NCBI GenBank assembly: GCA_016125495.1
Contig: WGLQ01000002.1
Location: forward strand, 276,969 to 340,968
From: Hyphomicrobiales bacterium
GTDB lineage: Bacteria; Pseudomonadota; Alphaproteobacteria; Rhizobiales; RI-29
DNA: 64,000 nt
Direction of reading: 5' to 3'
Shown here one piece after another: positions 39,121-51,628 of this stretch (positions within the stretch are counted from its first letter, which is position 1; the number at the start of each line of letters is the position of its first letter). The notes beneath the pieces are model-generated. The model ran no database searches. It was not told the origin of the DNA and saw only the letters and a list, made by a program, of their open reading frames with translations. Both the position numbers and the translations under genes were made by a program.

Positions 39121-40359
39121 TCAGTTCAGGACGATCGAACCGTCGTTGGTCATCGGCAAGGTCACGTCCATGTTGGCCTGGTCCATGTCGATCTGGAAGA
39201 CGCCATTGCCACGGATCATGAAGCTGTCGGCGATGATCGGCATGAGCGGGGAGTTGATGCCGAACGAGCCACCACCGGTGATGAAGACAGTCTGGCCAGG
39301 CAGGTAGATCGTGCCGACCATCGTGATGTCACCGCCGCCGTTGATCACGCTCGTCTCGTCATCGGACGATTCGATGTCGTTGGGGTCCTGGATGAAGAGG
39401 AAGCCCTCGTAGTTGCCTTCGGTCTGGGCACGCAGATCGGCAATCGCACCGCCGTCGATGTCGACGAGCGCGTCGTCACCGACGAGGTAGATCGTCACGC
39501 CGAGCCCGGTCACCTCGGCGCCTGAGCCGACGCTGAAGGGGCCGTCCTTCATGATGTAGACGCCCGGCTGCAGGGTCGCCTCGGCGTGGGTGCGGATGTC
39601 GAGGCCGCCGCAGTAGATGCCGGGCGAGAGGGTGCGCGGGCCCTGCTGCATGCGGACCGATTCGTTGTTGTAGTCGCAGCCCTCGCTTTCCGGATAGGCC
39701 ATGCCGGCATAGGGGTCGGCAACGTGCCCGCAGGTCTTGGGGCGCGGCGTGAAGTTGGTGCCGGACCAGCCACCGACGGTGCAGAACATGGTCGAGGAGG
39801 CGCTCGTCGTGCCGCCCGCATAGAGGGCGTCGGGAGCTGTCGAGTTGGTCTGCACCGAGCAGTTGACTGCGGTCAAGGTGCCGGTGCCCGAGATTTCGAT
39901 CGCCTTGCTCTTGGTCTCGTTGAGCGCGAGGAGGCAGATGGGCTTGGGCTGGACGGCGTTCGCGGTCGAGTTCACCGAAACCTCGACGCCCTCGAGGCCG
40001 ACGACGCCGAGGAAGGTCGTGTCGATGCTGGCATTTGCTGAGGCGATGATGCGGTTGCCGTCGTTGCTGATCTGCGGCGTCGCCGACGCGGCGAAACCGT
40101 TGAGGAAGTTCGCCGTGAAGATCTGGTTGGCGAGAACCAGCCGCTCCTCGATCGAGACGTTGGTCGCCTTGGCGGCACCCACCACAGCGGCATCGAGCGC
40201 CTGCTGGAGATGGGTGCGCACCGAGAGTGCACGCCCGTAGTCCACCGAGGAGCCGAGCGCGACAATGATCGGCGTCAGCGCCGCGGCGAAGATGATCGCG
40301 ACGTTGCCCCGACGGTCGGAAGCAAAGTGCGACAGGTGCTGCTTCAAAGAGGTCGTCAT
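39121..40359 (-). CDS. TadE/TadG-like pilus-associated protein
   Basis: 412 residues from ATG 40359 behind GGGGAC. The N-terminus is the TadE/G motif: DRRGNVAIIFAAALTPIIVA then LGSSVDYGRALSVRTHLQQA, a single N-terminal membrane span followed by an amphipathic helix. The large C-terminal part is extracytoplasmic and rich in Thr/Ser/Asn/Gly. It has several Cys and beta-strand stretches (GGGDITMVGTIYLPGQTVFI, repeated Gly/Asp patterns), as in TadG-type proteins. These contribute to Flp/Tad pilus assembly at the cell surface. No other tad/cpa gene is in the window, so it is an orphan. Confidence 0.8.
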   Translation of the reverse strand: MTTSLKQHLSHFASDRRGNVAIIFAAALTPIIVALGSSVDYGRALSVRTHLQQALDAAVVGAAKATNVSIEERLVLANQIFTANFLNGFAASATPQISNDGNRIIASANASIDTTFLGVVGLEGVEVSVNSTANAVQPKPICLLALNETKSKAIEISGTGTLTAVNCSVQTNSTAPDALYAGGTTSASSTMFCTVGGWSGTNFTPRPKTCGHVADPYAGMAYPESEGCDYNNESVRMQQGPRTLSPGIYCGGLDIRTHAEATLQPGVYIMKDGPFSVGSGAEVTGLGVTIYLVGDDALVDIDGGAIADLRAQTEGNYEGFLFIQDPNDIESSDDETSVINGGGDITMVGTIYLPGQTVFITGGGSFGINSPLMPIIADSFMIRGNGVFQIDMDQANMDVTLPMTNDGSIVLN

Positions 40360-40849
40360 CTGTTCAGTCCCCACACCGGCGCCCGCCACCACAATCGAAA
40401 AATTCCGGGCGCCTTGGTGAATGGAATAGTTGACAGGACTGTCACACTCCTTAAGCGGATTGGTCCAATTTTCCCGAATTGCGGTGGGGTGGTGTCAAGG
40501 ATGCGCGCATGCTGAATGAGATTTTAATGTGCCGAGAGTTCATTTTATTCAAACCCGCCGCCGTGTGAGGGCGGGGTCCGGTTGCGGTCGGCGCTCCCGC
40601 CGTCTGGCGACTCCAAGTCGCCTGAAACCACGTAAAATCGGGTGATTTCAGCGGGGGGGGCGGCTGACGATCCGCTGCTTCGGGGGGGGGTAGGAGGCCC
40701 GGAATGGCGCCTTATCGCACACTCGAATATCGATAAATTCGAGCGCATTTTTAATCGATCACGTTCGATCGAGAAATCGAATTGAAAAATCGGCCGGCAC
40801 ACGGATCATAATCGCCGTTCACCTTTGGACCGTCCTGGTGTTTACCAAT
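40360..40849. other. Intergenic region with G-tracts and an imperfect stem-loop
   Basis: 490 bases without a convincing gene lie between the TadG-like gene and the MBL-fold gene. It contains a G8 run (40653-40660), a G9 run (40682-40690) and an imperfect hairpin (CTGAAACCA 40622-40630 with TGATTTCAG 40643-40651). An AT-rich patch of about 80 bases (40720-40800) carries several TCGA/ATCGAT motifs and may be a promoter region. An 85-codon minus frame over it (40545-40802) has unconvincing composition. Confidence 0.4.
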
Positions 40850-41692
40850 TCAGTTGTCGTTCACCGTTGAAAGTGCCTGCCGTCCGACGATGATGGTGAG
40901 GTGCGGGCTCACGGAGAGCGTCGCGGTTGCTCCAGGGGCGATGACGGGCGGTGTCTCGAGCAGGCGGTCGAGGCAGGCCAGCAGGCACTCGAGGTCGGGC
41001 CGCGCGAGCCGTGGGGCGGTCGGCGCGGCATCGGCGGCATGGGCCCCGAGGATGGTGGTCGCGTGGCCGAGCAGCGGGAGGAGGGTGTCTGCGGTCGCGC
41101 GGTAGTCGGCGATGCTCGCACCGGGCGTCTGGGCATAGAGGGGACCCGGGTAGAGGAAGTCGGCGGCGAGGAGGATGTCGGCGTCGGCCAGCCAGAGGGA
41201 CACGCTGTCGGGTGAATGGCCGGGTGTGTGGAGGAGGCGCGCCGCGCGGCCGCCGAGGTCGATGGCGGTGCCGATGGGCAGCCATTCCGTAACGTGGAAC
41301 GTCGGAGCCTCGCGGTCTTCATGGCTGCCGAGGAAAAGCTCTTCGGGCGGGGTGACGGCATTACCCGATGCACAAGCGCGCAGAACCGGCAGGTCCGGTA
41401 AGGCCACGCACGAAAAGCGGGTGACGTTGCCGAGGTGGTCGTAGTGCATGTGCGAGGGGAGCGCGACGAGGGGGCGGCCGGCGGCGAGGCGGGCGGCAAG
41501 GTCGGTGATGTCGCCGAAGTAGGAGCCGGTGTCGAAGAGCAGCGCGCGTTCGGCGCCGACGATGAGGTAGCTCCAGTTGCGCTGCTCGTAGAGCGGCTCG
41601 CCGATGCCGTAGAGGCCCGGTGCGATCTCCTCGACGGCATACCAGCGGCCGTCGAGGGTTTCGGGCGCCGGGGCTGCCTGGTGCGGGGGCAT
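40850..41692 (-). CDS. Metallo-beta-lactamase-fold hydrolase
   Basis: 280 residues from ATG 41692. The zinc motif SHMHYDHLGN (HxHxDH), the later His in LLHTPGHSPDS, Asp in LLAADFLYPG and His in ILGAHAAD supply the usual two-zinc site. There is no signal peptide, so it is probably cytoplasmic, a hydrolase of the glyoxalase II/lactonase-like kind; the substrate is unknown. The gene starts 13 bases after the WD40-protease stop and may belong to the same transcript. Confidence 0.85.
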   Translation of the reverse strand: MPPHQAAPAPETLDGRWYAVEEIAPGLYGIGEPLYEQRNWSYLIVGAERALLFDTGSYFGDITDLAARLAAGRPLVALPSHMHYDHLGNVTRFSCVALPDLPVLRACASGNAVTPPEELFLGSHEDREAPTFHVTEWLPIGTAIDLGGRAARLLHTPGHSPDSVSLWLADADILLAADFLYPGPLYAQTPGASIADYRATADTLLPLLGHATTILGAHAADAAPTAPRLARPDLECLLACLDRLLETPPVIAPGATATLSVSPHLTIIVGRQALSTVNDN

Positions 41693-41705
41693 CGCGCCGA
41701 CCGTC

Positions 41706-44700
41706 CTATTGGGCGCCGGCGGTGCGTAGAATGCCGAGGCCCGCGGGCCGGTGCAGCCGCTCGATGTCGCTCTGGTCGAGCGGGCGAGTGTCGAGCCGTC
41801 CCTCGAGCGACATGGTCAGGTATTGGCTGATCGCTTCCTTGGGTGCCGCAAAGCCGCCGTCCGGCGAGCGGGACAGCCAGTCGCCGCTCGGCAGAATCTG
41901 GAAGCGCGCGAGTTCCTCGCCGGCATCGTTGGAGAGGGCCACCGCGTTGTTGTGTGCGCGTGCCTTGAGCCGGCCGTCGGCGCTGCGGGCTTCGTCACCG
42001 AGGGGCACCGGATACTGGCCCGCCGCAGAGGACAAGCGCGATCCGTCCCTGACCCTCCAATAGACGTCCTCGCCGCCGCTGGTGCGCGCGCGCAGGCTCG
42101 CTCCGTCCGACGAAAACGCGACGTCCATGACCCAGGCGCCGTTGCCCTCGATGGTGCGCACCAGCTTGCCGTTCGCGGCATTCCAGAGCCGGATGGTTTC
42201 GTCGTCGCTGCCGGTCGCAACGAGGCTTCCGTCCGGCGAGAAGGCGGCGGTGCGCACGTAATCGGTATGGCCCGTGAGGCGGTGGAGAAGGCGGCCGTTG
42301 CCGGCGTCCCAGACGAGTGCGGACTTGTCGTCGCTGGCGGTGACGATGCGGTTGCCGGCCGCCGAGAACGTCACGGAGCGGATCCAATCGCTGTGGCCGG
42401 ACATGGTGCGCAAGAGCAACCAGCCGGTCCCCCGATCCCAGACGCGCAACTTGCCGTCATCATGTCCGCCGGCAAGGATGCGGCCGTTCGGAGAATAGGT
42501 GAGGGCGCGCGGGGTGGAATTGTAGCTCGTGAAGGTGTGGGTCACACGGCCGCTGTCGACGTCCCAGAGCCGCACGCGGTTGTCACCGAAGGCGGTGGCG
42601 AGGGTGCGCCCGTCGGGGGCGAAGGCCATGGCGCCGATGCTGGCGTTGAGGCCCTCCATCGCGCGCACGGATTTGCCGGAGGCGGTCTCCCAGAGGCGAA
42701 CCGCGTTGTCACCCCCGGCACTCGCGATCCTGGCGCCATCGGCCGAGAACGAGAGCCCGTAGACGTAGCCCTGGTGCCCTTCGAAGGTGCGCACGAGCTT
42801 GCCGTTGCCGGGGTTCCAGAGTTGCACGTGGTTGTTGTCGGCGCCGCTCGCCAGCGATTTGCCGTCGGGTGAGAAGGCGAGCACACGAACCCAGTTGTCG
42901 ATGCTCTCGATGGTGCGCTGGAGCCGGCCGCTCGAGGCTTCCCAGATCCTGATCTTCTTGTCGTCGCTGCCTGTCGCGACGGTGCGCCCGTTGGGTGAAA
43001 TGGCGACGGCGCGTACGTAGTCGGCATGGCCTTCGAGCGTGCGCTGGAGGGCGCCGGCGTCGGACCAGATTCGCGCGGTCTTGTCGTCGCTGGCGGTTAC
43101 GACCGTGCGGCCGTCGCGCGTGATGGCGACGGCGCGGACCCAGTCGGTGTGGCCGGTGAAGGTGGTGATCATCTTGCGGGCCGCGAAATCCCAGAGGAGG
43201 GCGGAATGGTCGGCACTGCCGCTGGCGAGGCGCCTGCCATCCGGGGTGAACGCGAGCGACAGGACGAGGCTCGAGTGGCCCTCGAGGCGGCCGACCAGGC
43301 TGCCGCTCGCGGCATCGAAGACGCGGATGTGGCCGTCGCCGCCGCCAGCGACGATGAAGCGGCCATCGGGCGAGTAGACGACCGAGTTGAACGAAGTTTC
43401 GTGTTCGCCGAGTTCGCCGAGCAGGCGGCCGCTCGCGGCCTCCCAGACCTTGACCGTGTTGTCGTCGGAGGCGCTGGCGAGGCGCTTGCCGTCCGGCGAA
43501 TGGGCGACGCCGTTGACGGCGGCTGCGTGGCCGGCCTGGAGGACGATGCGCGGCCCCGTGGTGGCGCGGGTCGGCGCGGTGATCGTCGTGCGGCCCGGCT
43601 GGGTGGTGGGCGTCGAGGTCGAGGAACTCGGGGGCGCCGTGGTTTCGGTGCTCGTGTTCGCCGAATTGCCCGAACCGGACGAGCCGCTGCTCTCACCAGA
43701 CGGGGGTGTGCGCGAGGCGAGCTGCGGGCGGAGCGCGGTGAGCCGCTCCTCGGCGAGGGCGGCCTGTACGGTGCCGGCGTACTGCTTGATGAAGGCCTCG
43801 AGGACGACCGGGTTCTGGCTCTCCTTGATCGTCTCCCAGTAGCGCGCCGCCTCGCTCAGCGGGGCGACGGCCGGGCCCGGCTGGCCGAGCAGGGTTTGGC
43901 CCTGGGTCTGCTGCTGCTGCGGGCGCTCGTCGGGCACGAGCCCGCGCAGGCGCTGCGAGGCGGAAATCAGCCGCTCCATGCGCTTGCCGGCATTGAGGTT
44001 GCGCAAGGCGACGGCCGAGTAGTGCAGGCCGACGACGTTGCGCGTCGCGATGTCGAAGATCGGTGCGCCCGAGGAGCCGCCCATGGTGTCGCAATGGTGC
44101 AGCACGTCGTCGCCGTCGACGGCGGGGTCCGAGGTGTTGCAGCGCCCGAGCGTGATGTGCTGCTCGAAGCCGCCGGGATGGTGGATGATGAAGAGGCTCT
44201 GGCGGTTGTTGAGCTTGTCGGCGGCGAGTTTGACGGTGCCCCATTCGCGGCCGGGGCCGCCCTCGACCTGGAGGATCGCATAATCGAGGTTGGCGTCGGC
44301 CTCGAGCGGCGGCAGGCGGACGGGGTATTGCGCCACGCCATCGCGCGAGCGGGCCCTGAGGTAGCCCATCCAGAGCATGGCGACCTTGGCGTCGCGGATG
44401 CAGTGGTGGTTGGTGATGATGAGGTCCTCGGCGATGAGGCTCGCCGTGCAATAGCCGATGGCGCCGCTGGTGGTCTGGAAGGCGAAGCGGCCGACCGGGC
44501 GCGCGAGGCGGCGGAAGATGTCGCGGTCGGAAAGGTCGCGCACCGGCTGCATGTCGTTGGAGGCATTGACCGCTTCGAGGATGCGGTTGCCGGTGGACTG
44601 GTTGGCCGGGGGGTCGAGCGAGTAGATCGAGCCGGACTCGTAGTTGACGGTCTGGGCATCGGACGGGGTCGCCGAAAGCAGCAGGCCGCAAGCCAGGAGG

Positions 44701-44765
44701 GCGGCGAGGGCAGCGGGCAGGCTGGCGCGGCTGCGTGCGGTGGTGCGAGGGCGGCGCGTCGACAT
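41706..44765 (-). CDS. Exported trypsin-like serine protease fused to a 12-repeat WD40 propeller
   Basis: 1019 residues from ATG 44765 behind GGGAG. A signal peptide (about 1-38, SLPAALAALLACGLLLSATP then SDAQ) is followed by GSIYSLDPPANQST. The protease domain (about 85-260) has His121 (ITNHHC), Asp161 (NLDYAIL) and Ser232 (GGSSGAP). A helical module (KRMERLISASQRLRGL, LSEAARYWETIKESQNPVVL) leads to a Ser/Thr/Pro linker (about 352-405). Twelve WD40 repeats follow at about 411-915, the last degenerate (for example GHTDYVRTAAFSPDGSLVAT). A short C-terminal segment ends the protein. The propeller probably selects substrates or partners. A paralogous protease is upstream. Confidence 0.88.
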   Translation of the reverse strand: MSTRRPRTTARSRASLPAALAALLACGLLLSATPSDAQTVNYESGSIYSLDPPANQSTGNRILEAVNASNDMQPVRDLSDRDIFRRLARPVGRFAFQTTSGAIGYCTASLIAEDLIITNHHCIRDAKVAMLWMGYLRARSRDGVAQYPVRLPPLEADANLDYAILQVEGGPGREWGTVKLAADKLNNRQSLFIIHHPGGFEQHITLGRCNTSDPAVDGDDVLHHCDTMGGSSGAPIFDIATRNVVGLHYSAVALRNLNAGKRMERLISASQRLRGLVPDERPQQQQTQGQTLLGQPGPAVAPLSEAARYWETIKESQNPVVLEAFIKQYAGTVQAALAEERLTALRPQLASRTPPSGESSGSSGSGNSANTSTETTAPPSSSTSTPTTQPGRTTITAPTRATTGPRIVLQAGHAAAVNGVAHSPDGKRLASASDDNTVKVWEAASGRLLGELGEHETSFNSVVYSPDGRFIVAGGGDGHIRVFDAASGSLVGRLEGHSSLVLSLAFTPDGRRLASGSADHSALLWDFAARKMITTFTGHTDWVRAVAITRDGRTVVTASDDKTARIWSDAGALQRTLEGHADYVRAVAISPNGRTVATGSDDKKIRIWEASSGRLQRTIESIDNWVRVLAFSPDGKSLASGADNNHVQLWNPGNGKLVRTFEGHQGYVYGLSFSADGARIASAGGDNAVRLWETASGKSVRAMEGLNASIGAMAFAPDGRTLATAFGDNRVRLWDVDSGRVTHTFTSYNSTPRALTYSPNGRILAGGHDDGKLRVWDRGTGWLLLRTMSGHSDWIRSVTFSAAGNRIVTASDDKSALVWDAGNGRLLHRLTGHTDYVRTAAFSPDGSLVATGSDDETIRLWNAANGKLVRTIEGNGAWVMDVAFSSDGASLRARTSGGEDVYWRVRDGSRLSSAAGQYPVPLGDEARSADGRLKARAHNNAVALSNDAGEELARFQILPSGDWLSRSPDGGFAAPKEAISQYLTMSLEGRLDTRPLDQSDIERLHRPAGLGILRTAGAQ

Positions 44766-45355
44766 GGTCGGGGCTCCCATGGTGCGTTGGCTTCTCGGAC
44801 ACTGAATGGAAGGATCATGGCACGATCTGCCGTCAGATTGAAGCATCGGCGGGCAGAAAGCGCAGATGAGGCGAAGATTTCGCCCGATCGCGCCCTCGCC
44901 GGGGTTGCGACCAGGGGGCGGCGCTTGTCGGGTGGTTCGTCGGGTCTCGCAAGTGCTCGACCCGACCTACCCCCTCGAGGAGGGGGCCGGAATCACGGCT
45001 CCCGGGCGCGGTGCAGCGTGGAGCAAAGCGGAACGGTGCGCCGCAGACCCGGGACCGCTCTCGTTCTGCTCCCTACGTGGCGACCCCGGATCAGCAGCGC
45101 GTCATTGGATGCCGCGCAGCATCCGGGGATCGTGAGGGGGGCGCGCCTGATCCGGGGACCTGCACACCACGGCTCCCGGGCGCGGTGCAGGGCGCAGCCG
45201 TGCGCCGCAGACCCGGGACCGCCGCGTTCTGCTCCCTTCCCCGCGACCCCGGACCAGCAGCGCGTCATTGCATGCCGCGCAGCATCCGGGGATCGTGAGG
45301 GGGGGCACCGCATCCGGGGATCGTGGGGGTGGCGCGCCGCCGGTCCTAGGCAGAA
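44766..45355. other. Long intergenic region carrying tandem repeats
   Basis: 590 bases separate the two paralogous protease genes, with no gene supported. The part near 44766-44990 has no recognised element. From 44994 onward it consists of the direct repeats described separately. Confidence 0.45.
44994..45339. repeat. Two-and-a-bit tandem copies of a 140-150-bp GC-rich intergenic repeat
   Basis: Copy 1 (44994-45141) and copy 2 (45168-45305) both begin CACGGCTCCCGGGCGCGGTG, share CGCCGCAGACCCGGGACCG, TTCTGCTCCCT and CAGCGCGTCATTG, and end CAGCATCCGGGGATCGTGAG followed by G's. A third, truncated copy (about 45309-45339) keeps only the end. The period is 174 bp. It is non-coding, internally palindromic in places, and of a kind common between genes in Rhizobiales genomes. 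Confidence 0.75.
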
Positions 45356-47320
45356 CTACCGCGACAACGACCGAGCCACCCGGAAGCCGAGGCTGACGTA
45401 TGGGTTGCCCGAATTGGTTCCGAACCTACTGGCGGAGCGCAGGTCAAATGGATCGTCGACCCAGGCACCGCCGCGAAGAACGCGGGACGCGCAGCCAGAG
45501 TCTGTGACAGCCGATCCGTTGGTCGGAGCGCGGGCGTAGCTCTCAACGTAGCAGTCATCGACCCATTCCCAGACATTGCCGTGCATGTCGTGCAGCCCGA
45601 ACGCATTCGGGGCAAACGAGCCGACCTCAACCGTCCTGTCTCGATAGGGGCCCTTGGGGCCGGACCCGTAGGTGTAGTTGCCGTCGTAGTTCGCCTGATC
45701 GGTCGTGATCGTCGCACTGAAAGAGAAGGGCGTCGTCGTGCCGGCCCGCGCCGCATACTCCCACTCGGCTTCGCTGAGCAGCCGATAGGCCGCGGCGCCC
45801 GAAAGGCCCAGCTTGCGGTTCAGCCAGGGTAAATACTGCCGCGTGATGTCGTCCCACCGGACGTTGATAACAGGCTGCCGACCGCGGCCCCAGCCCCGGT
45901 CTTGCGGCCGATCCGTGCAGCCGCCGCCCGCGACACATGCGTCCCACTCCGCGAACGTCACCTCGAACTTACCCACCGCGAACGGCTGGCGGATCGTCAC
46001 ACGCCGTTGCGGGCCTTCGTCTTCGTCGCGCCCTTCTTCGCTAGCTGGTGAGCCCATCATGAAACTACCGGCCGGTACCACGACCATCCGAGGTCCGCAG
46101 AGACTGCCGTGGCAGTCCTGGAACTCCCTCCGCGCCTCGTCGGCCGGATCGAGACAGACCCGCCCTTTGCCGACCACCTCGGTCATCACACCGGCGCAGC
46201 CCGCCGACGGGCTCGGCGCGGGGGCAAGCGCAGGCGTCTCGGGGAACGTCCCGACGGCAACCTTCTCCTCCCCGCAATTCAGCTCCCCCTGGCGGGCCGT
46301 CGCGTAGCGCGCGAAGGGACTCTGCCCATGCGCCTCCAGATAGCTCGCGAGCACTGCGCAACTCGTCGACCCCTGCACCGCCTGCCATTCCAACGCCGCT
46401 GGCGAGAGCGGCGCCTGTGGCGCGGCGCTGCTTTCGGTGCCGCCCCTCTCCTCCTCCCCCACCATCAGCCCGCGCAGCCGCTCGGAGCGCTCGGCGATCG
46501 CGGCCATGCGCTTGGCAGCCTTGAGTTCCGAGAGGCCGGCATAGTGCAGTCCGATCACCGTGCGCCGCCCGAAGTCGAACACCGGGGCGCCGGATGAGCC
46601 GACCTCGGTCGCGCATTCGTGGAGGAAATCCTCGCCCGCGAGCGCCGGGGCGCTGGTCTTGCAGGCGCCCAGAGAGATGTGCTGATCCTGGCCGCCCGGA
46701 TGGTGCACGATGAAGAGCGACGTATTGTCGCCCGGGTCGGCGGCGGCGAGCCGCACCCGGCCCCAGTCCTTGCCCGGCGCCCCGCGCACCCGGTGGATGG
46801 CGTAGTCGAGTTCGGCGCTCGCCTCGACCGGATCGAGTTCGAGGCCATACTGCTTCACCCCGGTCGCGTCCTTGAAGCGCAGATAACCCATCCAGAGCAG
46901 CGCGTCGGCGACCTTGCCGAGCGGATTGCCGGCGATGCAGTGGTAATTCGTCAGCACGAGGTCGTCGGCTACGAGGCTCGCGGTGCAATAACCGACCTTC
47001 GGGCGGCCGGGGCCGAAATCGCCCGAAAAGGCGATGCGCCCGACCGGGCGCGCGAGGGTGCGCAGGACGTCGGCCGGGCCGAGCTGGCGCACGTACTGCA
47101 TGGCGCCCCGCTGGCGCTGGCTGGCGACGCGGCTCAGCAGTTGCTCGCCGAGCGTCGACTGCTGGGCCGGCGGGTCGAGGTCGTAAATGGAGCCGGCGTC
47201 GAAGGTGGCGACCTGGGCGGTGGCGGGGGGCGCAAGGGCCAGCAGGGCGATGGCCAACACGGCGAAACGCGCGGCGAGGCGGGTCGCAGCCCTCGGGGTG
47301 GTCTTTCCGGCGCTCGTCAT
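45356..47320 (-). CDS. Exported trypsin-like serine protease fused to an FGE/SUMF1-like domain lacking catalytic cysteines
   Basis: 654 residues from ATG 47320 behind GGGGGAG. The signal peptide (about 1-36) is followed by GSIYDLDPPAQQST, shared with the WD40-protease neighbour. The protease has His127 (LTNYHC), Asp172 (ELDYAIH) and Ser243 (EVGSSGAP). A module about 265-350 (KRMAAIAERSERLRGL, LSPAALEWQAVQGSTSCAVL) also matches the paralogue. The C-terminal FGE-sulfatase fold (about 411-650) shows RMVVVPAGSFMMGSP, YRLLSEAEWEYAARAG, HDMHGNVWEWVDDC and LGFRVA. Where true FGE has RGGSFxCHxSYC, this has RGGAWVDDPFDL, so both active-site Cys are missing. It is therefore probably a binding domain and no oxidase. 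Confidence 0.87.
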   Translation of the reverse strand: MTSAGKTTPRAATRLAARFAVLAIALLALAPPATAQVATFDAGSIYDLDPPAQQSTLGEQLLSRVASQRQRGAMQYVRQLGPADVLRTLARPVGRIAFSGDFGPGRPKVGYCTASLVADDLVLTNYHCIAGNPLGKVADALLWMGYLRFKDATGVKQYGLELDPVEASAELDYAIHRVRGAPGKDWGRVRLAAADPGDNTSLFIVHHPGGQDQHISLGACKTSAPALAGEDFLHECATEVGSSGAPVFDFGRRTVIGLHYAGLSELKAAKRMAAIAERSERLRGLMVGEEERGGTESSAAPQAPLSPAALEWQAVQGSTSCAVLASYLEAHGQSPFARYATARQGELNCGEEKVAVGTFPETPALAPAPSPSAGCAGVMTEVVGKGRVCLDPADEARREFQDCHGSLCGPRMVVVPAGSFMMGSPASEEGRDEDEGPQRRVTIRQPFAVGKFEVTFAEWDACVAGGGCTDRPQDRGWGRGRQPVINVRWDDITRQYLPWLNRKLGLSGAAAYRLLSEAEWEYAARAGTTTPFSFSATITTDQANYDGNYTYGSGPKGPYRDRTVEVGSFAPNAFGLHDMHGNVWEWVDDCYVESYARAPTNGSAVTDSGCASRVLRGGAWVDDPFDLRSASRFGTNSGNPYVSLGFRVARSLSR

Positions 47321-47377
47321 CTGCGACTCCCCCGTGCGTTCTTTTCCTCTTGGCCGCTCCACGCCCGCCGGTCGCTC

Positions 47378-47950
47378 CTACCGGTGTGCGATGTTGAAGC
47401 CGATGGTGATGGCGCCGACGGGCTTGCCGGCGATGAAGAGCGTGCGGCTCAGCTGCTGGGACCAGGTCTGTGTCGAATCGTCGAAATCGGTGCGGTCCTC
47501 GAAGACGGCCTGGGAGGCGGCGGCGTAGGTCTTCTGCCACTTGTCCTCGTCGCCCTGCCAATAGTCCGTCGTCTTGGGGTGGACCGCGATGTTGCAGCCC
47601 TTGACGTCCATCAGGATGATCTCCGTGACGCGGCCCTTGCTCGCCTCGATGATGGTCGCGAGGTGGCGCGCGAGGGGCGAGGCGAGCATCGGGTCGATGA
47701 GCGCGGCATCGCCAGCCCGCCAGCGCTTGTCGATGGCGACGATGGCGGCTTCATCGAGGTTCGCGCAGGGCGCGTCCGCCGGCTTGAAGGCGGCGCGGAA
47801 GGCGGCGTCGGCCTCGAGTTCGGTCACGATGCGGTCGAAGTGCGGCACGTAGCCCTTCTGGGCGGTATCGGCGGGATCGGCGAGGGCCGGCACCCCCGGC
47901 CCGAGCAAAGCCGCAGCAACCGTCGCCACCCGAAACAGATTTCCCCCCAT
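47378..47950 (-). CDS. Uncharacterised exported protein (possible Cache-like sensor domain), 190 aa
   Basis: The start is ATG 47950 with GGAGGAAATGAC before it. A signal peptide (about 1-24, VATVAAALLGPGVPALA) precedes a single periplasmic domain. It is a mixed alpha/beta fold with an N-terminal helix, a central strand IILMDVKGCNIAVHPKTTDY and a final strand pair RTLFIAGKPVGAITIGFNI. That resembles an isolated dCache/sCache-like ligand-binding domain, although no motif proves it. It lies 57 bases upstream of the FGE-protease on the same strand. Confidence 0.65.
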   Translation of the reverse strand: MGGNLFRVATVAAALLGPGVPALADPADTAQKGYVPHFDRIVTELEADAAFRAAFKPADAPCANLDEAAIVAIDKRWRAGDAALIDPMLASPLARHLATIIEASKGRVTEIILMDVKGCNIAVHPKTTDYWQGDEDKWQKTYAAASQAVFEDRTDFDDSTQTWSQQLSRTLFIAGKPVGAITIGFNIAHR

Positions 47951-48031
47951 GTCATTTCCTCCCGACCGTTGACACCGAACCTGCGCGCCACCCCGTTCCC
48001 CTGGCGCGTCAACCCATGCAGCCGGAACCTT

Positions 48032-48805
48032 CTACTTGCAGAGCGAGCGCATGTGCGAGACCACGACATCCGCGCTCGCGCCGAGCGGAGCGAATCCGAC
48101 GCGCCGGTTCTCAGGCGCGAGCCCGTCGGCGGCATTCTTCAGGATGCGCTCGCCGACGCCGATGGCGATGAGGCGGGTGGGGGGAACGCCCTGCGAGACG
48201 AGCGCGGAGGCGAGCGCCTCGGCCCGGGCGCGTGAGAGGCGGCAATTGTAGGCGTCGGCGCCCTTGGCGTCCGTGTGACCGAGGACGAGAAAGGCGAGAT
48301 CGCGTGTCGCATCGTCCTTCAGAGCGGTCGCGAGCTGGGCGACCTTACCCTCCTCGCCGGGCGCGAAGGCGGTCGAATCGTAGGCAAAATAGACGTTGGC
48401 TTCGACCATGGCGAGTTGTGGGGCCTGGCTCGCGACCGGCGTCTGGGGTGCCGCGAAGCTCACCGGCTCGCCGCGCTTCACCACGGGTTCGCCAGCGGAA
48501 TAATCCACGATCACCGTTTCGAGCTGGTGCTGGAGGGCCGACTCGAGACCGCCATCGGTCTTGTTCTCCCTGGCGAGGTGGCAGCTGACGCGGTCGGAGG
48601 GATCGGCGAGGCATTTGGCAAGGTGGTTCTCGGTCGTTTCGCCGAGAGGCTTGGCATTCGGGTCGCCCCAGAGCCCGCCCTGCCCAAGGAAAACCTCCGG
48701 GGTCTGGGCCGAGGCCGCGACGGGCGAAAGCAGCAGGAACCCGGCCGCGACGAGGGCAGCGAACGAGGGCAGGGTCATATTTGGCTGGGGACGCGTGGCG
48801 GGCAT
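48032..48805 (-). CDS. OmpA-family exported protein
   Basis: 257 residues from ATG 48805 with GAGG upstream. After a signal peptide (about 1-34) comes an unknown region (about 35-120). The C-terminal about 130 residues form an OmpA/MotB peptidoglycan-binding-like domain: ANVYFAYDSTAFAPGEEGKV, FLVLGHTDAKGADAYNCRLS, RARAEALASALVSQGVPPTR and PENRRVGF. The Asp in GHTD and the Arg in the helical RARAEAL motif, which contact diaminopimelate, are kept. It may anchor the neighbouring secreted proteins to the cell wall. It shares SAGEPVV/VVDY-type motifs with the DUF4384 protein upstream. Confidence 0.8.
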   Translation of the reverse strand: MPATRPQPNMTLPSFAALVAAGFLLLSPVAASAQTPEVFLGQGGLWGDPNAKPLGETTENHLAKCLADPSDRVSCHLARENKTDGGLESALQHQLETVIVDYSAGEPVVKRGEPVSFAAPQTPVASQAPQLAMVEANVYFAYDSTAFAPGEEGKVAQLATALKDDATRDLAFLVLGHTDAKGADAYNCRLSRARAEALASALVSQGVPPTRLIAIGVGERILKNAADGLAPENRRVGFAPLGASADVVVSHMRSLCK

Positions 48806-48859
48806 GGCGTTGTCCTCGGCTCTGGTTTCGGGGAGTGGAAACATTCCGCGACCGAGCGG

Positions 48860-50464
48860 TCAGGGAGCGATCTTGATCCTCAAGCTGCGGCGGATGATCT
48901 CGCCCTCGCCGGCGGGGGTCGGTGCGTCGTAGTCGACGACGACCGTCTCCAATGTCTTTTCCTCGTAGTTTTCGGGACTGGTCGAGCCGTCGGAGCAGGC
49001 GACTTCGGCCGTTACATGGCGTTCGGTGGCGACGGCACCGGGCGAGGCGTTGCAGAGGGCGATGAAGGTCTCGGTGCCGGCATCGCCCGCGCGCATCGAG
49101 CCGCGCGGTGGAAAGCGGAAGGTCTCGCCGGCCTTCAGCAATCGGTCCTCGACCTTGGGGTGCGGCAGGAGGACGCAGCTGCGGCCCCTGTCGTCGACGT
49201 TGATGAGCGTCAGACGGCAGTCGACCGGGGGCACCAGCGTCAGCGCCATCGGATCACCCGGCCGAAAGCTCGCCTGGCTGGCGAAGAAGCCGAAGTCGGC
49301 GCGCTCGACGGGTTTGGGCGCGAGCGGCGTCGCCGCCGGCAATTCGGTGACGGCGGGCGCCGTGGTCACCGCGGGCGTCTCGCCGGTGGCGGGGACGCTT
49401 GGCGTTTCAGCGACGGTGTCGGTGGTCGTGGCGGGGGCCGACGTGACGGTTGGGGAGGTGGCCGGCGGCTCGCAACCGGCGCGGCGCGAAACCGGGATGA
49501 CGGCCTGATAGCGAATGAGGTCGAGGATGCCGCCGTTCTCGTACAGTGTCACGGTGACCTCGAGGACGCTGTCGCCGAGGGGGGAGGCCTCGGCGAGCAC
49601 CTCGAGTTCGCGGCCTTCGAGAACACCCTCGGGCGAATCGCCGCTCGCCTGGCGGATCTGCGGCCATTCGGTGCTCTCGCCCAGTGCGAGCCCCTGACGG
49701 CGCATGTCGAAGACGAGGGCGGTGACGTCCCGGCCCATGCCGCGCTTCAAGGCACACTCTCCGGGCAGGTCCGCGCGTCCGACGATGGTGAGTTTGCCGG
49801 CCGCCGCGATCTCCTTGCCCATGCGCTGGACGGCGTCGATCAGGGCACCGCCGAGGACGACGAAGTCGCCCTCGCCCGAAGCGCGGGTGCGCGGCTCGAA
49901 GGTCGTGGCGTCGAGCGAGAGGACCGCCGTTTCGGTGCAGCCATAGCCGCCCGAGGCATCGCGGCCGAGCATGTTGATCTGGAGCTGGAGGAGGTCGGGC
50001 GTCGGGCGGGCGGTGTCGAAGACGACGACGATCGGCGCATCGTAGCGCTTGGCGAGCGTATCGCGCAGTTCGATCGCCGCGTTCGGGCCGCCGCGCACGA
50101 GTGATGGCAGCACGCCGGCCGGCTCGATCGGGTTGGCGCGAAATCCCTTGATGGTGCCGATTTCGGCGGCGGCGGCGGAATTGAGGGCGCGGCGATCGGG
50201 CGGATCGAGATGGATGTTGAGCGGCGGCACGCCGATGAACAGCACCTCGCGCTCGCCGGCCGAGGAATGGCCGGTGCAGGCGTTGAGGCGGAGCGCGAGA
50301 CCGGTCATCTCGCCGCGCAGGGCGATGCGGAACGGGTAGGCGTCGCTTTCGGCAGCGATCGCCGTGCCGGCTCCGACGAACGGAATGGAGAATACGAGCG
50401 CCGCGAGCGCGGTCCGGGCGCTGCTGGCGATCCGGCTCGGGCGAGGAAATCTTGGAGATGGCAT
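48860..50464 (-). CDS. Exported protein with C-terminal DUF4384 domain, 534 aa
   Basis: The start is ATG 50464. A signal peptide (about 1-37, ALAALVFSIPFVGAGTAIAA) is followed by an alpha/beta domain (about 40-330) resembling a CsgG/curli-like or peptide-binding fold, with conserved VVVFDTARPTPDLLQLQINM. A Thr/Ala/Pro-rich linker (about 331-385) comes next. The end (about 388-500: ASFRPGDPMALTLVPPVDCR, INVDDRGRSCVLLPHP) is DUF4384. Such domains are often attached to exported caspase-like or protease proteins. It is the first gene of the minus-strand secreted cluster and probably heads the operon. Confidence 0.75.
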   Translation of the reverse strand: MPSPRFPRPSRIASSARTALAALVFSIPFVGAGTAIAAESDAYPFRIALRGEMTGLALRLNACTGHSSAGEREVLFIGVPPLNIHLDPPDRRALNSAAAAEIGTIKGFRANPIEPAGVLPSLVRGGPNAAIELRDTLAKRYDAPIVVVFDTARPTPDLLQLQINMLGRDASGGYGCTETAVLSLDATTFEPRTRASGEGDFVVLGGALIDAVQRMGKEIAAAGKLTIVGRADLPGECALKRGMGRDVTALVFDMRRQGLALGESTEWPQIRQASGDSPEGVLEGRELEVLAEASPLGDSVLEVTVTLYENGGILDLIRYQAVIPVSRRAGCEPPATSPTVTSAPATTTDTVAETPSVPATGETPAVTTAPAVTELPAATPLAPKPVERADFGFFASQASFRPGDPMALTLVPPVDCRLTLINVDDRGRSCVLLPHPKVEDRLLKAGETFRFPPRGSMRAGDAGTETFIALCNASPGAVATERHVTAEVACSDGSTSPENYEEKTLETVVVDYDAPTPAGEGEIIRRSLRIKIAP

Positions 50465-50599
50465 CGCATGCCCCCAGTCAAAAATCCTGAATGTTCGTTC
50501 AGACTACTGGAAGCACGAGGTGGAAACGAGTCCTCGTGGCGCGCGGCAAAGAATGACAGAGGGTGGGCGAAGTCGGCAACGGTTGCGTGACGGCAGGCC

Positions 50600-51628
50600 T
50601 CAATGGGCCCGCGCGACACAGAATTCGACGACCTCGGCAAGCGCCCGGCGCGCCTCGCTCTCGGGAAAGATGGCGAGCGCATCACGCGCGATGGCGCCAT
50701 AGTGGCGGGCGCGCTCGATGGTGTCCTCGATCGCGCGGTGGCGGCTCATCAGCTCGATGGCGTGATCGAGATCGCCGTCCTCGATGGTCCCTTCCTGCAG
50801 CGTGCGCCGCCAGAAGGTGCGCTCGTCGGCGTTGCCCCGCCGGTAGGAGAGCACGACGGGCAGCGTGATCTTGCCTTCGCGGAAGTCGTCGCCCACCGAT
50901 TTGCCGAGGCGCGCCTGTTCTCCCGAATAGTCGAGGGCGTCGTCGACCAGCTGGAAGGCGAGGCCGAGGTTCTTGCCGTAGGAGCGCAATGCGGCGGCTT
51001 CGTCGGCCGGGCGTTCGGCGATCGAGGCACCGACCTCGGAGGCGGCGGAAAAGAGGGCGGCCGTCTTGGCATTGATGACGGCGAGGTACTCGTCCTCGGT
51101 CGTCGCCGTGTTCTTGGCGGCGGCGAGCTGCATCACCTCGCCCTCGGCGATCACGGCGGCGGCGTGCGAGAGGATGCGCAGACACTCGAGCGAGCCGACC
51201 TCGACCATCATCTGGAACGACTGGCCAAGCAGATAGTCCCCGACGAGGACGCTCGCCTGATTGCCCCAGAGGAGGCGGGCCGTCTTGCGGCCGCGGCGCA
51301 GATCGCTCTCGTCCACGACGTCGTCGTGCAGCAGGGTGGCGGTGTGCATGAACTCGACCGACGCCGCGAGCAGCACGTGGCCGTCGCCGTGATAACCGCA
51401 GAGGCGGGCGGCCGCGAGCGTCAGCATCGGGCGCAGCCGCTTGCCGCCCGAGTCGATCAGGTGACGGGCGAGTTCGGGAATGAGGTCGACGTTGGAGTGG
51501 GCCTTGTCGATGATGATCGCGTTGACGCGCCCCATGTCCTCCTGGACGAGGGCCAGCAACGGGCGCAAGCTGGCGATCGGGTCGCGCGCGTCATCGATTG
51601 AAACGACAACACCCAATGTGCACCTCAC
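50600..51628 (-). CDS. ispB: Trans-polyprenyl diphosphate synthase (octaprenyl/decaprenyl type)
   Basis: About 342 residues from GTG 51628; TTG 51616, with AGGTG upstream, is a possible alternative start. Both aspartate-rich motifs are present: FARM in TATLLHDDVVDESDLRRG and SARM in AFQLVDDALDYSG. GGKRLRPMLTLAAARL binds isopentenyl diphosphate. The product is the ubiquinone side chain. Alphaproteobacteria usually make decaprenyl or octaprenyl chains; length cannot be read from sequence. It is divergent from the DUF2007 gene. Confidence 0.9.
   Translation of the reverse strand: MRCTLGVVVSIDDARDPIASLRPLLALVQEDMGRVNAIIIDKAHSNVDLIPELARHLIDSGGKRLRPMLTLAAARLCGYHGDGHVLLAASVEFMHTATLLHDDVVDESDLRRGRKTARLLWGNQASVLVGDYLLGQSFQMMVEVGSLECLRILSHAAAVIAEGEVMQLAAAKNTATTEDEYLAVINAKTAALFSAASEVGASIAERPADEAAALRSYGKNLGLAFQLVDDALDYSGEQARLGKSVGDDFREGKITLPVVLSYRRGNADERTFWRRTLQEGTIEDGDLDHAIELMSRHRAIEDTIERARHYGAIARDALAIFPESEARRALAEVVEFCVARAH

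Follow-up and report, generated by a model that had tools for sequence, protein, structure and literature searches.

The window, meaning the whole 64,000-nucleotide stretch of DNA analysed here, carries six genes on its minus strand that run from position 50464 down to position 40850 and encode, in this order, DUF4384, OmpA-family, Cache-fold, trypsin-FGE, trypsin-WD40 and MBL-fold proteins (Table 1). All six were found where the original prediction had placed them, separated by gaps of 15, 81, 15 or 57, 575 and 13 bases, the last being the short spacing that had been reported between the WD40 protease and MBL genes. Pfam analysis agreed with the family assignments for the DUF4384 and OmpA proteins, the latter retaining the OmpA signature, and placed P0001 in the MBL fold (2e-17). 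A signal-peptide heuristic marked the five proteins expected to be exported and left the MBL protein unmarked; this permissive test also marks 372 of 1079 other genes of related loci. A single transcript for all the genes is doubtful, because a 575-base gap containing a dispersed repeat separates the two protease genes. The source genome comprises 36 contigs and is 99.35% complete, and the 60 relatives searched all come from outside the source organism's own family.

Table 1. Features of the gene cluster (positions in the window unless a locus is named)
Feature	Positions	Strand	Evidence
P0006, DUF4384 protein (534 aa), proposed hub	48860..50464	-	Pfam DUF4384 2.6e-7; full-length relative in genome G225
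LpoB/TolB-N-like domain of P0006, about residues 43-190	49895..50338	-	Predicted model and structure comparison
ETVVVDY segment, P0006 tail, from residue 506	48929..48949	-	Pattern scan
P0005, OmpA-domain protein with N-terminal extension, proposed peptidoglycan anchor	48032..48844 (start 48844 or 48805)	-	Pfam OmpA 9e-15; alignment; class and order scans
ETVIVDY segment, N-terminal extension of P0005	48500..48520	-	Pattern scan
P0004, Cache-fold exported protein (predicted), outside conserved set	47378..47950	-	Predicted model; neighbourhood counts
P0003, exported trypsin-like protease (predicted) with FGE-like tail	45356..47320 (possible start 47362)	-	Pfam, profile search, alignment
Dispersed intergenic repeat copies separating the two protease genes, outside the system	44994..45338	-	Repeat search
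P0002, exported trypsin-like protease (predicted) with WD40 tail	41706..44780 (start 44780 or 44765)	-	Pfam, alignment
P0001, MBL-fold protein, non-exported by heuristic, outside conserved set	40850..41692	-	Pfam, heuristic, neighbourhood counts
'VMGEDA' family members	L157 12712-13683; L169 11981-12922; L174 275-1234; L107 8650-9714

The repeat is GC-rich, with a unit of about 163 bases and 31 matches in its own genome; several groups of copies directly follow FGE-type genes and sit at contig ends, and others follow unrelated genes. Its position beside FGE-type genes had suggested a diversity-generating retroelement. This candidate was rejected: copies also lie beside genes matching no FGE seed, and a search of the source genome at its 99.35% completeness gave no match to reverse transcriptase (RVT_1). 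Rfam gave no match within positions 40000-51000.

The two proteases resemble glutamyl endopeptidases

P0003 matched the Pfam families FGE-sulfatase (1.5e-51) and Trypsin_2 (1e-12), and P0002 matched WD40 in 12 stretches, consistent with the predicted FGE-like domain in one protease and 12 WD40 repeats in the other. Trypsin_2 is not among the 25 families listed of the 68 matching P0002, and is matched in all 58 aligned proteases, P0002 included. The protease parts of the two proteins are 44% identical over 351 columns, as expected of the paralogues they had been taken to be. The alignment consists of the two window proteins and 56 relatives, drawn from the 76 with a length of at least 420 aa by removing near-duplicates by hand. 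A His-Asp-Ser catalytic triad, the cysteines at 112, 128, 220 and 236, and His259 are invariant in 58 of 58 members; the serines named earlier as catalytic, Ser243 of P0003 and Ser232 of P0002 (numbering from MSTRR), both align as the predicted nucleophiles.

His259 is aligned with the histidine of 1p3c and 4jcn, the residue that reads P1 glutamate in glutamyl endopeptidases, and these enzymes are the nearest solved sequences among the profile-comparison matches listed. By alignment, then, the window proteases resemble glutamyl endopeptidases in their catalytic residues and S1 histidine, and are predicted to cleave probably after Glu. They differ in being distant from these enzymes (best profile E 1.8e-9) and in having the four invariant cysteines and long tails.

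The tails are diverse. Among the 58 proteases, beta-helix (15), SH3_3 (13), Sel1 (10), FGE (4) and WD40 (3) tails were counted from the 25 families listed of 79 matched. The FGE-like tail of P0003 is closest in profile comparison to PvdO (1e-46), among the FGE-like C-type lectin folds, and differs from it in being fused behind a protease and in scoring under the curated cut-off (203 versus 500 bits). Formylglycine-generating enzymes have two active-site cysteines after an RGG(S/A)W segment; there is no Cys after RGGAW in P0003, so the FGE-like part is more likely a binding module than a sulfatase activator. Arrays of four consecutive family proteases with differing tails (beta-helix, Sel1 plus peptidoglycan-binding, and others) occur in the Rhodobacterales loci L108 (7899-16266), L122 (3776-13090), L124 and L127.

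Exchange of modules among paralogous proteases

A search of the source genome with P0003 gave 12 matches, P0003 itself among them. The genome also holds a second trypsin-FGE protease at the end of contig C28; a protein at the end of contig C29 with trypsin-like, PDZ and weak peptidoglycan-binding matches; and a shorter protease on C25. Genes for trypsin-DUF4384, caspase-FGE and caspase-Sel1-PG_binding-FGE proteins cluster on C15. A protein on C12 combines FGE with the N-terminal domain of the DUF4384 protein, and an OmpA gene lies alongside on the opposite strand.

The original prediction that the two window proteases had swapped C-terminal modules was borne out by the C28 paralogue and by a tree of protease domains. 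Summed over alignment blocks, residues 1-150 of the C28 protein share 112 identities in 149 positions with the WD40-type protease and 78 in 148 with the FGE-type, while residues 201-450 share 198 in 250 with the FGE-type. Judged by these identities, the C28 paralogue is a chimera of both window proteases, with its switch point in the linker. A tree uniting the protease domains of C28 and the FGE-type window protease was rejected (AU p 0.0046), as was one uniting both window proteases (p 0.014); these values are weakened because both groups were chosen after the protease-domain tree had been seen. On the tree, which holds 106 of 109 proteases (three with fewer than 150 residues of domain were omitted), the tail label, 'none' and 'other' included, needs at least 24 changes. 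The C28 contig (L078, 2445-12077) also carries bchE, bchZ, bchY, bchX and bchC near the chimeric protease, and from these bacteriochlorophyll genes the source organism is probably an anoxygenic phototroph.

The DUF4384 and OmpA partners

The predicted model of P0006 is of middling quality (mean pLDDT 66), its N-terminal part lying mostly above 80. Structure comparison aligned 125 of 135 residues of this part with LpoB (4q6l) at Z 9.4 and rmsd 3.4, by a tool whose best Z is 7 to 8 even for models without clear relatives; Foldseek gave a probability of 0.99 and E 4e-3. FlgT, TolB and PelC resemble the same part at Z of about 6, LpoB scoring highest. The model thus resembles the LpoB/TolB-N/FlgT fold over most of the length of the domain. 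The predicted likeness to LpoB, the TolB N-terminal domain, FlgT and PelC is one of fold only: this N-terminal part lacks a sequence family match, and P0006 carries an added DUF4384 part.

Comparison of the predicted proteins shows that this N-terminal module is exchangeable. In two Rhodobacterales members (L129, 12013-14544, and L153, 12016-14340) it is replaced by a part with two CxxCH motifs, which gave weak cytochrome matches below cut-off and is perhaps a di-haem redox input. In a Filomicrobium MAG (L098), a caspase stands in its place, forming a caspase-DUF4384 fusion. The DUF4384 subfamily was found in 6 of 385 genomes of a class sample, a sample too thin for a test of co-occurrence.

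Alignment of the OmpA partner (six rows) contains 35 invariant columns, including four cysteines and the OmpA signature. The GHTD and YN-LS-RA segments that mark a peptidoglycan-binding domain are both present, and the protein is a candidate wall anchor. Among the 385 class genomes, an OmpA-profile match starting before position 56 was found in the window genome only. A search of 264 Rhodobacterales genomes at E <= 1e-40 gave the OmpA partner family in 4, the L129 genome included. Plasmid searches gave 43 records with a match to the OmpA protein, none over 80% of its length.

A conserved protease, DUF4384 and OmpA neighbourhood

Searching a one-genome-per-species collection with a protease profile gave 360 confirmed relatives, of which 80 were kept, representing 77 distinct loci (L109, with no called protease, was retained). 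By profile scan, protease, DUF4384 subfamily and OmpA partner genes are all present at 19 of the 77 protease-seeded loci. It had been proposed that conserved neighbourhoods be sought, and that absence of co-occurrence outside close relatives would count against the cluster; the three genes do co-occur outside close relatives. By record label, the 19 triad loci are 16 Rhodobacterales, one Hyphomicrobiales, one unplaced and one 'Enemella' (L120). With 16 of 19 from one order, the independent events number fewer than 19; the actinobacterial 'Enemella' label is probably wrong, since the protease of that locus groups with those of Rhodobacterales.

Linkage of the partners is tight. In 18 of 19 triad loci no more than 15 bases separate the DUF4384 and OmpA genes, or the two overlap (254 bases in L149). 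The closest protease gene lies 24 to 122 bases away, except in L129 and L158, where the corresponding distances are overlaps of gene calls. Gene order is protease, DUF4384, OmpA in most Rhodobacterales loci and caspase-DUF4384, OmpA, protease in the Filomicrobium MAG, while L099 and L160 have the protease on the other strand. In Anianabacter salinae (L153), trypsin-WD40, trypsin-SH3, DUF4384 and OmpA genes stand in a row; the two proteases are mutually nearest in the tree, so this differently tailed pair arose apart from that of the window.

A reverse test seeded with OmpA found DUF4384 and protease genes beside OmpA in four of four newly read loci (three Rhodobacterales places and G689); in G825 one gene intervenes between protease and DUF4384. 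At E <= 1e-50, 13 of 16 genomes, hand-chosen and 12 of them for holding a triad, have one OmpA hit each; 12 hits are at triad loci by coordinates and the thirteenth is that of G689. An exception is G225:C63, where a DUF4384-OmpA pair has neither trypsin nor caspase in the stretches read; a more distant pair on G225:C7 is followed by a caspase. Gene neighbourhoods thus show that DUF4384 and OmpA with an N-terminal extension are a conserved neighbour pair beside one or more S1-type proteases with predicted export. The other 58 of 77 loci are without the triad in the stretch examined, so the protease family also works without it. Plasmids gave 13 distant protease-domain matches, two covering at least 80%. 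In a SAR324 MAG (L104, 899-5151), a family protease is followed by a lipoprotein-like gene and then a DUF4384 protein, and the protease-DUF4384 link may therefore reach beyond Alphaproteobacteria.

The cluster was originally described with two proteases, a Cache-like protein and a following MBL gene beside the DUF4384 and OmpA genes. Its protease/DUF4384/OmpA core is conserved, and membership of the Cache and MBL genes was not supported. Two proteases per locus are not a requirement, since more than one is present at 19 of 77 loci. P0004 has no Pfam match, and its predicted model does match Cache/PAS sensor folds as proposed (Foldseek probability 1.00, best E 1e-6); among genes called at the 77 loci, no P0004 homologue was found, and the Cache protein was rejected as the system's sensor. 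The P0004 family is present in 73 of 297 genomes of the order. The sole P0001 homologue at the 77 loci is weak (L167, 1e-4).

A segment common to both partners

A pattern scan, the window counted, found an E-T-L-V-L-D-L-like segment in 19 of 20 DUF4384 tails and 17 of 19 OmpA extensions, compared with 9 of the 1189 other proteins encoded there. The pattern was written after inspecting the sequences, and the 1189 others include the L132 OmpA partner, which fell outside the E-value cut and whose extension bears the segment. The two copies within a locus can share details: both window segments end in DY, and both L160 segments have F at the third place (ETFVFSL and ETFVLDL). In the P0006 model the segment lies within a low-confidence stretch (residues 475-525). 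Homology of the whole DUF4384 tail with the OmpA extension was considered and rejected (hhalign probability 0.5%), and the claim is limited to the short segment. The segment could serve as a docking strand or, since the protease should cut after Glu, as a cut site.

Relation to described systems

Fusions of trypsin, caspase and DUF4384 are already in print. A published fusion likewise brings together a trypsin-like protease, a caspase-like part and DUF4384 in Alphaproteobacteria; there they form one protein, whereas the window has separate genes, an OmpA partner, exchangeable tails and no caspase. The source genome has a trypsin-DUF4384 fusion of its own on C15. Prokaryotic caspases carry WD40, Sel1, FGE and peptidoglycan-binding domains (PMC3501461), a tail repertoire like that of the window family; the protease there is C14 rather than S1, and the partners are absent from the portion of that work consulted. 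No orthocaspase (C14) domain was listed for the six window proteins (for P0002, among 25 matches listed), while such domains, caspase-FGE proteins included, are present elsewhere in the genome. DUF4384 and WD40 are also found on cyanobacterial orthocaspases (PMC7475262), and trypsin-like peptidases in a CARD-NLR-like system (PMC13236601). The VMAP/iSTAND peptidase conflict systems (PMC7159879) have trypsin or caspase effectors, some iSTAND systems having OmpA and Sel1 parts; the window cluster differs in its predicted export and in that no NTPase appears in the Pfam lists of the six proteins (P0002 among 25 listed). The cluster also departs from Tol-Pal: the LpoB/TolB-like domain and the WD40 propeller sit in different proteins, and P0002 scores 26 bits against the TolB profile (cut-off 343).

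A description of the cassette itself was not found in the portions consulted of PMC6426788, PMC3501461, PMC7159879, PMC7475262 and PMC13236601, or in literature searches, whose coverage leaves out most subscription journals. Recurrence of the three-part set in distant bacteria suggests a system lacking prior description.

Proposed function and alternatives

We give an even chance to the reading that the locus encodes an exported envelope protease, wall-tethered and partner-controlled, with exchangeable recognition tails. The OmpA protein would hold the assembly on peptidoglycan, and the DUF4384 protein, with an LpoB/TolB-like domain in its window version, would act as the hub. The shared segment would be a docking strand or cut site joining hub and anchor to each other or to the protease. 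An FGE, WD40, SH3, Sel1 or beta-helix tail would select a target or ligand, and binding would steer the protease to cut, probably after Glu, either an envelope protein or the partners. A more specific version, which we think unlikely, is an envelope proteolytic switch in which a Glu-specific protease cuts or docks on the segment common to hub and anchor, and sensing by the tail releases or re-arms the assembly; compared with zymogen cascades, such a switch would be a periplasmic counterpart made of swappable parts.

It is also conceivable, if rather unlikely, that the exported proteases serve nutrient scavenging, digesting protein for amino-acid uptake while OmpA and DUF4384 do no more than retain them at the surface. 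In L129, genes for an ABC transporter of the amino-acid type (binding protein, permease and ATPase) do lie just upstream of the triad, with genes of the same sizes, judged by size only, in several other Rhodobacterales loci. By size and position, however, no such transporter genes are present in the window, L098 or L099; moreover, the tails are of kinds typical of binding modules, and linkage is as tight for the partners as for the protease. Envelope quality control by DegP/DegS-type proteases with unusual tails appears quite unlikely: the exported S1 protease with PDZ on C29 would fit it, but the nearest solved relatives are glutamyl endopeptidases with no Deg protease among the matches listed, no PDZ is among the families listed for the window proteases, and their tails are diverse.

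An envelope-exported conflict or cell-death system would fit the diversification of the protease tails, and conflict systems are known to contain trypsin, caspase, WD40 and FGE parts (PMC7159879). Against this stand the six window proteins, with no NTPase or nuclease in Pfam (P0002 among the 25 matches listed), PADLOC matches that are weak or to the WD40 part, and plasmids that yielded no full-length OmpA partner and only the 13 distant protease matches; we regard such a system as very unlikely. That these are unrelated exported genes, neighbours by chance, is more improbable again. Most triad loci do come from one order, yet the partners are rare (among 264 Rhodobacterales genomes, 4 have the OmpA partner; among the 385 class genomes, 6 have the DUF4384 subfamily and 1 an early OmpA match) and adjacency persists through changed gene order and strand.

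If the wall-tethered, partner-controlled protease is correct, an OmpA family with a distinctive extension would be the defined partner of DUF4384, and exported proteases its setting. Modular proteases anchored to the wall would then exist in Gram-negative envelopes, comparable to the trypsin and caspase systems of the cytoplasm. The S1 histidine and shared segment lead to direct predictions: cleavage after Glu, and docking or cutting at one segment.

Other gene families near the proteases and partners

A second exported family, the 'VMGEDA' proteins, lies near the same protease in 9 of 77 loci, with an OmpA gene within six genes in four of the nine and a caspase gene in six (L112, L157, L163, L169, L173 and L174). 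Three members scanned gave no Pfam family, and profile comparison for an LpoB-like domain was blank, the lone PDB match listed having E 0.74. Four genes of about 185-244, 392-419, 167-179 and 495-534 aa stand in the same order in the source genome (L220, 2770-8966, on C4) and in G225 (L222, 151-3937, on G225:C63), near OmpA and LpoB-like-domain or DUF4384 genes; none reached the Pfam or NCBIfam cut-off. At L220 (9089-11215), an exported protein with an animal-haem-peroxidase match (6e-20) is encoded upstream of the LpoB-like-domain gene.
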